DNA of 64,000 nt from Firmicutes bacterium HGW-Firmicutes-1 (lineage in GTDB: Bacteria > Bacillota > Clostridia > Lachnospirales > Vallitaleaceae): assembly GCA_002841625.1 (NCBI GenBank), contig PHAG01000009.1:62001-126000 (forward strand). Direction: 5' to 3'. Shown here in pieces: positions 323-47,795 of the stretch. Position 1 is the first letter of the stretch; each line of letters opens with the position of its first letter. Under the pieces are notes generated by a model that did not search any database, was not told the DNA's origin, and saw only the letters and a program-made list of their open reading frames with translations. The position numbers were made by a program, and so were the translations under genes.

Positions 323-679
323 AGAAAATATTGGGGAAAAATTATGATGATATGCTAATTTATTGTGAAACGCTACGTTGTCGACAAAGGAACATTTGTA
401 TTTTATTAATATAAATCAGACTGTCGACAAAAGCATTTTTTCTGATAGGTGTACTCATCATTGGCAGTAAGTGTTCATTTTCTGGCCTTACCCTTCGGCC
501 GGTCAGGCGAAAAATGAACACTTACTGCCTTTTGTATTAATCTAGAAGAAAAAATGCTTTTATCTCTGTTTCGTTTTGTTTACGCAATTGAAGCATCAAA
601 TAGCTAACAAGGATTTTAACAACCCATGGATTCACTTGAATTGGGCATACTATTCTTATTATTCTAGAGGAGGCTTTAT
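323..679. other. 357-bp non-coding region with a long nested palindrome
   Basis: No credible gene is present. The region holds two direct copies of TGTCGACAAA (379-388 and 422-431), each containing the palindrome GTCGAC, and the large nested inverted repeat at 429-561 described separately. The second TGTCGACAAA runs into the first bases of the outer arm. The 3' part (562-665) carries the leader of the Rieske oxidoreductase gene; I saw no clear sigma-A promoter there. Confidence 0.6.
429..561 (+). repeat. Nested inverted-repeat element, copy 1
   Basis: Outer arms 429-443 and 547-561 are perfectly complementary over 15 bases. Inner arms 463-481 and 511-529 are perfectly complementary over 19 bases. 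They enclose a core at 482-509 that contains GGCCTTACCCTTCGGCC and can fold with GCCT pairing to AGGC. A second element at 47460-47620 has almost the same core, on the opposite strand, but completely different arms. The wobble pattern of the second copy suggests the RNA reads as the plus strand here. It could act as a terminator for the ABC gene, a structured RNA, or a small mobile repeat; the sequence does not decide. Confidence 0.75.
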
Positions 680-14364: not shown

Positions 14365-14439
14365 CGGGGTGTGGCTCAGCTTGGCTAGAGCGCTTGATTT
14401 GGGATCAAGAGGCCGCAGGTTCGAATCCTGTCACCCCGA
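14365..14439 (+). tRNA. tRNA-Pro (anticodon TGG)
   Basis: Acceptor CGGGGTG pairs with CACCCCG; the anticodon loop TTTGGGA reads TGG; the T arm contains GGTTCGAATCC. No CCA is encoded after the discriminator A. Confidence 0.95.
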
Positions 14440-14445
14440 CTTTTG

Positions 14446-14516
14446 GCGGGTGTAGTTCAATGGTAGAACACCAGCCTTCCAAGCTGGTTACGCGGGTTCG
14501 ATTCCCACTACCCGCT
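14446..14516 (+). tRNA. tRNA-Gly (anticodon TCC)
   Basis: Acceptor GCGGGTG pairs with TACCCGC; the loop CTTCCAA reads TCC; T arm GGGTTCGATTCCC. No encoded CCA. Confidence 0.95.
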
Positions 14517-14521
14517 TAATT

Positions 14522-14544
14522 ATAAGCAAGCGATGCTTGCTTTT
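14522..14544 (+). terminator. Hairpin between tRNA-Gly and tRNA-Arg
   Basis: AGCAAGC and GCTTGCT form a short stem around GAT, followed by TTTT. It may partly terminate or mark processing inside the tRNA transcript. Confidence 0.4.
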
Positions 14545-14568
14545 GATAATTAGACTAATAATAAATTT

Positions 14569-14642
14569 GTGTCTGTAGCTCAGCTGGATAGAGCACCGCC
14601 CTTCTAAGGCGGGTGTCCAGGGTTCGAATCCCCGCAGGCACG
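14569..14642 (+). tRNA. tRNA-Arg (anticodon TCT)
   Basis: Acceptor GTGTCTG pairs with CAGGCAC; the loop CTTCTAA reads TCT. No encoded CCA. Confidence 0.95.
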
Positions 14643-14676
14643 CTTTACGATCATAGTAAATATGAAAGTAATATGT

Positions 14677-14751
14677 GGTGGGTATAGCTCAGTAGGTTAG
14701 AGCGCAAGATTGTGGCTCTTGAGGCCGTGGGTTCGAGACCCATTATCCACC
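14677..14751 (+). tRNA. tRNA-His (anticodon GTG)
   Basis: Acceptor GTGGGTA pairs with TATCCAC, with the extra G(-1) at 14677 facing C73, as expected for tRNA-His. The loop TTGTGGC reads GTG. No encoded CCA. Confidence 0.95.
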
Positions 14752-14762
14752 CTTAATAATAA

Positions 14763-14834
14763 TGGGTAGTCGCCAAGCGGTAAGGCACAGGACTTTGACT
14801 CCTGCATTCGAAGGTTCAAATCCTTCCTACCCAG
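14763..14834 (+). tRNA. tRNA-Gln (anticodon TTG)
   Basis: Acceptor TGGGTAG pairs with CTACCCA; the loop CTTTGAC reads TTG; T arm AAGGTTCAAATCCTT. No encoded CCA. Confidence 0.95.
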
Positions 14835-14839
14835 TTTAT

Positions 14840-14913
14840 GGGTTACTAGCTCAGCTGGCTAGAGCACTAGACTTTTAATCTAGGTGTCCCGGGTTCGAGT
14901 CCCGGGTGACTCA
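14840..14913 (+). tRNA. tRNA-Lys (anticodon TTT)
   Basis: Acceptor GGGTTAC pairs with GTGACTC through wobble pairs; the loop CTTTTAA reads TTT; T arm CCGGGTTCGAGTCCCGG. No encoded CCA. Confidence 0.94.
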
Positions 14914-14943
14914 CTTACCAGAAATGGTATGCCTTTATAATAT

Positions 14944-15023
14944 GCGGGTGTGGCGGAATTGGCAGACGCACTAGACTTAGGATCTAGCGGGCGACCGTGC
15001 AGGTTCAACTCCTGTCACCCGCA
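14944..15023 (+). tRNA. tRNA-Leu (anticodon TAG)
   Basis: Acceptor GCGGGTG pairs with CACCCGC; the loop CTTAGGA reads TAG; a class II variable arm follows. No encoded CCA. Confidence 0.95.
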
Positions 15024-46319: not shown

Positions 46320-47264
46320 ATGGGGAAAACACAATATTCAATTATAGTACCGCTCTTCAATGAAGAGCTTGTAATTGGAGAGTCCTATAGAAGAATAAAA
46401 GAAGTGATGGACCAAACAAATGAAAGTTATGAAATTGTTTTCATTAATGACGGGAGTAGAGATCAAACTGAAAATATAGCAAAAGAGATTTGTCAAAAAG
46501 ACAAAAACATAAAGTTAATCAGCTTTTCTAGAAACTTTGGACATCAACCTGCAATTACTGCTGGAATGAACGAGGCATGTGGAAATGCAATTATTATCAT
46601 TGATGCTGATTTACAAGATCCACCAGCCATAATGCATAATATGATTGAAAAGTGGAAAGAAGGTTATGACGTTGTGTATGGTAAAAGAAGCAAACGTGCT
46701 GGAGAAACCATTTTCAAAAGAATTTCTGCAAAGATTTATTATCGATTACTCAGTAGCATTACAGATGTGCAAATTCCAGTTGATGTGGGAGATTTCAGAT
46801 TAATTGATAGAAGCGTTTGTGATGCTTTAAATAGATTGCCAGAAAAAAATAGATACGTCAGGGGACTTGTAAGCTGGGTTGGTTTTAAACAAACCTTCGT
46901 AGAATTTGAAAGAGAAGAACGCCTACTAGGAGAAACAAAATATCCACTCAGAAAAATGATAAAATTAGCACTAGATGGAATAACTTCTTTTTCAAATAAA
47001 CCACTAAAACTTGCTTCCACCTTAGGGTACGCCGTATCTGCCTTAGGATTTATTTATCTTATTGTAATACTATTTCAAAGAATCTTCACAGACACAACCA
47101 TCACCGGATGGACAAGCATCATTGCCCTTTTACTCATATTAAATGGTGTTACCCTCATTATGCTAGGAGTATTAGGAGAATATATCGGCCGTATATACGA
47201 TGAAATGAAGGCAAGACCAGTTTACATTATTAAAGAAAAGATAGGCTTCGAAGATACCAAATAA
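46320..47264 (+). CDS. GtrB/DPM1-like family 2 glycosyltransferase with two membrane helices
   Basis: The 314-residue protein starts with a GT2 domain: SIIVPLFNEELVIGESY, EIVFINDGSRDQT, IIDADLQDPP with the metal-binding D-x-D, and VYGKRSKRAGE. Two C-terminal helices (about 235-258 and 270-292) place it in the YkcC/GtrB group, which makes polyprenyl-phosphate sugars on the inner membrane face. These are then flipped and used by membrane transferases such as the upstream protein. AAGGAG precedes the ATG. Confidence 0.9.
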   Translation: MGKTQYSIIVPLFNEELVIGESYRRIKEVMDQTNESYEIVFINDGSRDQTENIAKEICQKDKNIKLISFSRNFGHQPAITAGMNEACGNAIIIIDADLQDPPAIMHNMIEKWKEGYDVVYGKRSKRAGETIFKRISAKIYYRLLSSITDVQIPVDVGDFRLIDRSVCDALNRLPEKNRYVRGLVSWVGFKQTFVEFEREERLLGETKYPLRKMIKLALDGITSFSNKPLKLASTLGYAVSALGFIYLIVILFQRIFTDTTITGWTSIIALLLILNGVTLIMLGVLGEYIGRIYDEMKARPVYIIKEKIGFEDTK

Positions 47265-47459
47265 AGTATAAAGGCCTTTTTCAATCGTTGACAAAAGAAT
47301 TATACACATATTAGATTAGAACTATATTTGCATATTAGAGAAAAAAATGGTTATAAGACTATATTTCAAAAACACAAGAAAATAGGCTGTGCCGAATTAA
47401 AACTCTCGAGACCCATGCCGCTTTTCCAATTGCATATGCAAAACTTTCGCCAATAAAAA

Positions 47460-47620
47460 AGATGCACTGTTATGAACTGAAGAGACGATTGCTATAGATG
47501 GGGATGGGTATGTAATCATTTTTCGCCCGACCGGCCAAAGGGTAAGGCCAGAAAAATGATTACATACCCATCCCCATCAACACGTATCATATCATCTCTT
47601 CAGCTCATAACAGTGCATCT
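47460..47620 (-). repeat. Nested inverted-repeat element, copy 2
   Basis: Outer arms 47460-47489 and 47591-47620 are complementary over 30 bases with two mismatches. Inner arms 47497-47523 and 47552-47578 are perfectly complementary over 27 bases. The 28-base core (47524-47551) reads CGCCCGACCGGCCAAAGG and onward, and its reverse complement differs from the core of copy 1 (482-509) at only two bases. On the minus strand both outer-arm mismatches become G-U pairs, and one core difference keeps a stem pair as G-U. I therefore infer a minus-strand RNA. A poor promoter-like pair (TTGATA, 19 bases, TATAAC; 47655-47625) would start it near the outer arm. Confidence 0.8.
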
Positions 47621-47795
47621 TTACGTTATACCAAAATTACAACCACTCTTATCAACAGCCAACAACCTATCATCCATACTTTTTCATCATACAATAAAAA
47701 TCCACCATCAAAAATTTCATGGAGGTATTATTTAGCAAGGTATTATTTTGAAATATTTCATTTTTATAACAACTCATTAAATTTCCATGAAAAAA

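Follow-up and report, generated by a model that had tools for sequence, protein, structure and literature searches.

Introduction

Group IIC introns are found in a fixed orientation beside terminators, and GTAG-type REP elements are linked to a RAYT tyrosine transposase. REP elements of the GTAG and CGTC super-families are described as small, dispersed palindromes with variable stems that lie after coding regions, between tandem or convergent genes (PMC3733652), and REPs have also been described as serving as targets for IS elements (PMC1525189). IS1272/TnSha1, of the IS1182 family, is described as inserting at terminator hairpins with no sequence preference (PMC4923244). Compensatory changes have in turn been described as arising through template switching during replication (PMC8794818).

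Here we analyze a window of 64,000 nucleotides, corresponding to positions 62001-126000 of contig 9 of a draft genome of 3.95 Mb in 33 contigs (the host, G000). A first-pass annotation of this window had described a nested palindrome whose core recurs, inverted, elsewhere in the window, and had proposed that selection acts on an RNA fold of the minus strand. We found that the hairpins belong to a family that is not in Rfam and is far larger than two copies.

Results

A Nested Hairpin and Its Second Copy in the Window

The nested palindrome is real and spans 47458-47622, with measured outer arms of 32 bases and inner arms of 28 bases (Table 1). The outer arms carry two mismatches over their 32 bases, A/C and C/A on the plus strand, and the inner arms form 28 perfect pairs when the closing C-G is counted. 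As had been reported, the 28-base core is back at 482-509, inverted and with two changes, and a 17-base core pattern allowing up to three mismatches gave two matches in the window against 0.08 expected. RNA folding of 47465-47622 yielded z-scores of -14.4 on the minus strand and -14.8 on the plus strand, and that of 416-578 a z-score of -10.6.

Table 1. Coordinates of the two hairpin copies and of the neighboring genes in the window.
Feature	Position in window	Strand	Remarks
Unit B left outer arm	47458-47489	+	32 bases; common to three further B copies (L098, L105, L108)
Unit B left inner arm	47497-47524	+	28 bases including closing C
Unit B conserved core GCCCGACCGGCCAAAGGGTAAGGCCA	47525-47550	+	its 21-base pattern has 34 exact genome copies
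Unit B right inner arm	47551-47578	+	partner of 47497-47524
Unit B right outer arm	47591-47622	+	partner of 47458-47489
Unit A copy (second copy of the first-pass annotation)	417-575 (C9:62417-62575)	-	without the first 32 consensus bases
Unit A inner arm	463-482	-	lacks one T, on the left side, relative to 509-529
Unit A conserved core	483-508	-	inverted relative to 47525-47550
Unit A other inner arm	509-529	-	partner of 463-482
Glycosyltransferase gene, PgfS-like	46320-47264	+	upstream of unit B; 310.8 bits (curated cut-off, 500)
Open reading frame, 975 aa	47867-50794	+	downstream of unit B; no NCBIfam match

The arms of the two copies had been described as unrelated and sharing nothing. They are not wholly unrelated, because the innermost nine bases (TCATTTTTC) are common to both copies, and an alignment of copies shows diverged homologues. 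It is correct that the two outer-arm mismatches become G-U pairs on the minus strand, these being two events in one copy. The G-U pairing proposed between the GCCT and AGGC stretches of the core is possible in most host copies (GCC is present in 39 of 53 places, and the fourth base is any of the four letters), but the corresponding stretch of relatives usually comprises three bases and often does not allow it.

At the gathering score, Rfam 15 matched seven tRNAs only in the window and neither hairpin. A cluster of seven tRNA genes lies at 14365-15023.

Distribution of the Core

We counted 34 exact copies of the 21-base core GACCGGCCNAAGGGTAAGGCC in the host genome and none of the reversed control pattern. 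When a 24-base core pattern was searched with up to three mismatches, we obtained 53 matches in the host and six in G001, the sole second genome from this genus. For analysis we extracted 53 places, of which 52 are in the host and one is in G001. The suggested search for more core copies thus returned many, with complementary changes in their arms, so the contrary outcome, a core found only twice and arms lacking such changes, did not come about. The description of a core inside arms that vary while remaining complementary is upheld by these copies.

A first covariance model built on 13 rows was searched against 295 genomes of the order and matched 13, the host being one of them; these represent five genera and three families. 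A second model, built on nine hairpins, had 52 matches in G000, 5 in G001, 40 in G013, 21 in G021, 18 in G016, 19 in G017, 14 in G012, 27 in G055 and 23 in G253. Since only two of 391 genomes sampled from the class matched, one being the host and the other giving a weak match of 38 bits, the family is narrow as far as the second model reaches. Most of the hairpins that we read in relatives keep the pattern G-NN(N)-GACCG-(variable apical loop)-RGG-N-AAGGC-(N)A while nearly everything else differs; some copies in genus g8 and in G253 deviate from the core consensus (e.g., GATCG, ATCCG). A folding of the core by GGCC/GGCC pairing was considered and dropped, because what relatives retain is a G(A)CC/GGC pairing.

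Searching the GTDB r220 contigs, a set from which near-host records may be absent, with one strict pattern gave four places, all in the MAG HGW-Firmicutes-7. Two core patterns had no match in viral contigs, a query with one unit A copy had no match in plasmids, and a word-based search of the open-access literature returned no description of such a core. In 20 loci compared with Rfam 15, the hairpins matched microRNA models only, far below the gathering score. The sole match above the gathering score in these loci was a 16S rRNA, and those below it were to microRNA models, apart from one to rimP and one to SNORD37. Two loci of G016, L142 and L155, have identical hairpin contexts, and the L142 hairpin is situated some 480 bases upstream of a 16S rRNA gene.

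Units That Carry the Hairpin

The core occurs in three settings in the host, namely unit A, unit B and a free hairpin. Unit A, with 46 parsed host copies and a 47th in L139, is about 190 bases long. Its ends are CAGGTTGTTGAC and, inward from the opposite side, CAGACTGTCGACA, and from outside to inside it consists of outer arms (AAAAGCATTTTTTCT), inner arms (GGCAGTAAGTGTTCATTTTTC) and the core. Terminal inverted repeats are present (left, CAGGTTGTTGACAA; reverse complement of the right end, CAGACTGTCGACAA), and they are imperfect, some copies being truncated. Two copies, in L006 and L022 (G000), end right after the core and are followed by unrelated sequence, and the copy in L091 is without the left inner arm, by eye through a deletion between ATTTTT repeats.

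Unit B has four copies (L020, L098, L105 and L108), 47458-47622 among them, with outer arms like AAAGATGCACTGTTATGAACTGAAGAG and with inner arms that vary from copy to copy yet are perfect complements. Free hairpins without either outer arm are found at L030 and, once, in L096. Two further units hold the same module outside the host genus. One, in genus g8, starts with CGAAACCGAATGAGG; four genomes contain 25, 32, 11 and 20 matches to it, totals that include partial matches and those on the opposite strand at one and the same place. The other, in G253, has terminal repeats AACTCAGAAAGTGCTCATTAAAGC. Because short similarities are visible by eye, the outer parts of the g8 unit and of unit A may not be independent. 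Hairpins also form tandem arrays in G021 and G013, with periods near 196 and 254 bases. A tandem core-hairpin array lies at about 1280-2320 of L228 (G013), and each repeat of it additionally contains TGTTTCACGTGAAAC-like palindromes that may be akin to ParB sites (parS).

At 1258-1403 of L288, ends like those of unit A (ACAGAGATAAA ... TTTGTCGACAAC) enclose a different palindrome, and unit A ends may therefore carry different hairpins. A second hairpin type with variable arms, whose constant tip is GCATGGATGC or ACATGGATGT, was seen there and in many G016/G012 loci (e.g., L201 and L278). Among distinct CATGGATG sites in the fetched loci, 15 of 52 were at a hairpin tip with a score of at least 9, compared with none of 80 shuffled 8-mer sites, which were counted in the window instead; the window itself has no CATGGATG.

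Complementary Changes in the Arms

At the 53 extracted places, the inner arms are perfect over at least 20 bases in 41, contain one non-standard pair in eight and are short in four. The eight non-standard pairs (G-T three, T-G one, A-C two, C-A one, A-G one) show no strand bias in the host genus, at four to three, which gives no support to the proposed selection on a minus-strand RNA. The arms of A, B and the free hairpins can be aligned with one another. In alignment A1, whose 13 rows were selected by hand to cover the diversity of the copies then seen and are hence not random, double changes were present in 14 of 26 arm pairs and one-sided variation in none. Covariation was compared with that of shuffled alignments, and none of 500 shuffles attained the observed score. 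In the nine-hairpin set, 53 of 180 cells were double-changed, one was a G-U and one a mismatch. Alignment A4, of nine rows, is likewise not a random sample; A2 and A3, in which MAFFT misaligned the arms, were excluded from the counts.

In the largest set, of 98 distinct hairpins, 98.7% of 1960 cells were paired and 634 were double-changed, compared with at most 40% paired in slid controls; this set includes close copies, and its alignment leans towards structure because it was fitted to structure. Double changes occurred at all 20 pairs, including the three core pairs (G-C, C-G and C-G), in which G-C was replaced by A-U in three rows and each C-G by U-A in one. The near absence of G-U among the nine hairpins (one of 180 cells) fits template switching during replication. 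Intermediates do exist in the larger set, as 34 G-U and 26 unpaired cells were found among the 1960. DNA template switching yields the same covariation signal as structured RNA.

We parsed 107 of 109 model matches, omitting one unit A copy in L096 and L159, which is the same place as one L234 match. The 109 matches came from 82 loci chosen among those fetched (36 of 40 for G013, for instance), and the parsed hairpins are mostly free, together with one unit A copy, four B copies, and copies of the g8 and G253 units. Read on the plus strand, G-T/T-G mismatches exceeded A-C/C-A by 32 to 7 distinct events, copies within one genome not being independent, and by 29 to 7 (p 3e-4) when G012 and G016 were merged. 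The excess stems mainly from G055 and G016/G012. The strand on which these mismatches would be G-U is opposite both to the mRNA of the right-hand gene and to the RNA strand that had been proposed, so that family-wide the mismatches run against selection on a minus-strand fold. Symmetric template switching does not explain this strand effect, for which transcription from the left and strand-biased mutation are both candidates. The outer arms of unit A lean the way that had been proposed, with six A-C/C-A to one T-G in 43 copies, some of these coming from one rearranged copy.

Position Relative to Genes

Genes were called crudely, as longest frames of at least 100 aa. With the core read from GACCG to AAGGC, 87 of 106 hairpins have a right-hand gene that runs on the opposite strand (p 1.4e-11), and therefore its 3′ end faces the hairpin. 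The same orientation was found for unit A in 38 of 46 copies. When G013, G055 and G016 were taken together, 39 gene 3′ ends lay within 75 bases on the right vs. four on the left, and divergent placement was seen for 5 of 107 hairpins. The unit B copy of the window departs from this pattern, as both its neighbors are on the plus strand.

The stop codon of a minus-strand right-hand gene is at a median distance of 62 (-H-) or 97 (+H-) bases from the hairpin, and in G013 21 of 36 hairpins are within 75 bases of the end of such a gene, many of these genes being housekeeping ones as judged by their protein ends. A simple terminator finder had a hit in the interval from gene to hairpin for 12 of 107 hairpins, with one to four in the three other strand/side classes and 8 in 846 control strand-windows. 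Runs of at least five T in the eight bases past the hairpin were present on the minus strand in 26 of 107 and on the plus strand in none; for G013 the corresponding numbers were 13 and none of 36.

Orthologous Sites

A 19.2-kb stretch of contig 6 that contains four A copies has a syntenic counterpart in G001 with matches on both sides. The three G001 pieces between the syntenic matches contain no core and no A arm (all four copies absent), and the same scan recovers all four in the host; the pieces are not clean empty sites, because other sequence occupies them. A fifth A copy, beside the free hairpin of L096, is absent from G001 at L111. By eye, G001 has one terminator hairpin at this locus and the host has two, which flank unit A; the free hairpin of the locus is present in both species. 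Unit A is lineage-specific and therefore young.

The ends of unit A could be located in 38 of the 52 host places. A flank duplication above the 99th percentile of cross-locus controls was found in 5 of these 38 copies (e.g., a 25-base hairpin in L099), and left flanks were palindromic in 7 of the 38 vs. 5 of 150 control windows. The host draft genome had no match to PF13751, the one Pfam model searched, which we take to be the model for IS1182-type transposases. Among the unit-A-like ends that were followed, a subset, nine regions had such an end and no core, and the eight frames near them included no transposase.

Four pairs of hairpins have orthologous flanks (L030/L119, L096/L111, L148/L150 and L152/L240), and the flanks of L224 also match those of L240 and L152. 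The arms of L152 and L240 are identical. Those of L030/L119 and of L148/L150 differ widely, each hairpin being complementary but for at most one G-T. Between L096 and L111, whose flanks are 80-84% identical, the arms differ by two substitutions and a one-base deletion, the same on both sides. The joint deletion points to DNA template switching, which would give it with no RNA involved, and this too weakens the case for selection on a minus-strand RNA.

Discussion

We consider it about an even bet that the family is a non-autonomous mobile hairpin with a conserved tip, which spreads free or in larger units and is kept symmetric at the DNA level. Under this explanation, the two window features would be carriers of a single module, namely a long hairpin whose tip bears the conserved, asymmetric core. 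The module may spread as a small non-autonomous mobile DNA, either as a free hairpin, which is then probably mobile itself, or inside larger units with differing outer parts, these being A and B in the host and others in genus g8 and G253. Insertion would be mostly beside gene 3′ ends and in one orientation. Recognition, whether by the mobilizing machinery or by a protein of the host, is probably directed at the core, which may then be in the form of a single-stranded DNA hairpin, while the arms would need complementarity only, template switching in DNA replication copying changes, even indels, from arm to arm. We read the orientation as a targeting preference, because unit A is young and selection can hardly have sorted its copies yet. 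Several observations weigh against this explanation: the searches described above turned up no mobilizing gene, flank duplication is clear in only 5 of 38 copies, free hairpins persist at orthologous sites, a terminator separates gene from hairpin in only 12 of 107 cases, G-U and unpaired intermediates exist in the larger set, and the plus-strand excess of G-T/T-G is not accounted for.

More tentatively, this could be a mobile DNA hairpin that is read at its tip only, in which the machinery reads the core, the arms are left nearly free through template switching, insertion occurs in one orientation at gene 3′ ends, and several carriers are used. Such an element would be a new way of being a transposable element, and it would provide a natural case of very strong RNA-like covariation without RNA function.

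The main rival, which we regard as possible but rather improbable, is a functional RNA element of 3′ UTRs that acts on the transcript end, on stability or on protein binding, with a core that binds protein or RNA and with units A and B as later captures. The short distances from stop codons to the hairpins, the many G013 hairpins close to the ends of what look like housekeeping genes, the rarity of divergent placement, the one-sided T runs of G013 and the compensated core pairs are all in its favor, and the persistence of free hairpins at orthologous sites also suits a function. However, in the mRNA sense of the right-hand gene, A-C mismatches far exceed G-U, which is the reverse of what RNA selection would produce. 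Moreover, the young, lineage-specific unit A shows the same orientation, so targeting can explain the orientation, and a T run on the minus strand accompanies only about a quarter of the parsed hairpins (26 of 107).

It is improbable that these are ordinary intrinsic or bidirectional terminators that share a loop by chance. Their length and stability, their nearness to gene ends and, for some (e.g., L249, L255 and L261), a T run would fit, but the core is conserved across three families of the order, copies are lineage-specific, 81 of 107 hairpins have no T run by the measure used above, and some, by eye, lie beyond another terminator (e.g., L158 and L239). We find it still harder to believe that the arms are created afresh at each site by fold-back copying of the neighboring sequence, the literal form of the self-templating insertion that the first-pass annotation had offered. 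Near-perfect complements that differ among copies would be expected from it, and DNA fold-back copying does account well for the arms as such. The arms are nevertheless recognizable homologues within and between genomes, with GCAGTAAGTGTTCATTTTTC in g1 and, altered, in g8, and GGGTAAAGTGTTATAATCAC in several G013 copies, and they were therefore inherited with the core, not made from the target. Least probable of all is a structured small RNA whose loop is constant and whose template is set by the minus-strand fold proposed for 47460-47620: the G-U pairs of the window copy, the similar lean of the unit A outer arms and the fact that in most parsed hairpins an mRNA from the right-hand gene would carry that strand fit it, but the family-wide bias of the inner arms is on the other strand, no Rfam match is present and one orthologous pair has a joint indel in both arms. 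Taken as a whole, the earlier interpretation is partly supported.

No kind of sequence evidence for RNA structure is rated higher than covariation. The joint arm change at one orthologous site, with its indel, and 53 double changes vs. one G-U in nine hairpins are what DNA-level arm copying predicts, and the family thus offers a natural system in which to measure how misleading statistics of covariation can be. Should the core be a recognition structure, it would lead to a mobilizer or host factor that acts at gene 3′ ends in these Bacillota.

Among known systems, group IIC introns resemble these hairpins in their fixed orientation, an analogy that concerns targeting only. IS1272 is described as deleting part of the hairpin without target duplication (PMC4923244), whereas flank duplication is seen in a minority of unit A copies. 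REPs are like these hairpins in being small and dispersed, in their varying stems and in their placement at gene ends, but their stems are described as 5-13 bp (GTAG) or 8-9 bp (CGTC) with an unpaired end tag (PMC3733652, in the main text of which the words Firmicutes and Clostridi occur zero times), while the stems here are about 17-36 bp with a conserved tip. By eye, the arms, of about 17-36 bases, have no constant tag such as GTAG or CGTC at their ends; the CGTC seen in G055 is at the arm/core junction, not at an end. Unit A comes close to MITEs and bcr1-like repeats: it is short, non-autonomous and present in many copies at lineage-specific sites, it has imperfect terminal inverted repeats (CAGRYTGTYGACAA), and its presence is polymorphic (four of four copies and a fifth case relative to G001). 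What sets it apart from them is that the ends followed and the PF13751 search led to no parent transposase, and that its core hairpin is common to several units with different ends.
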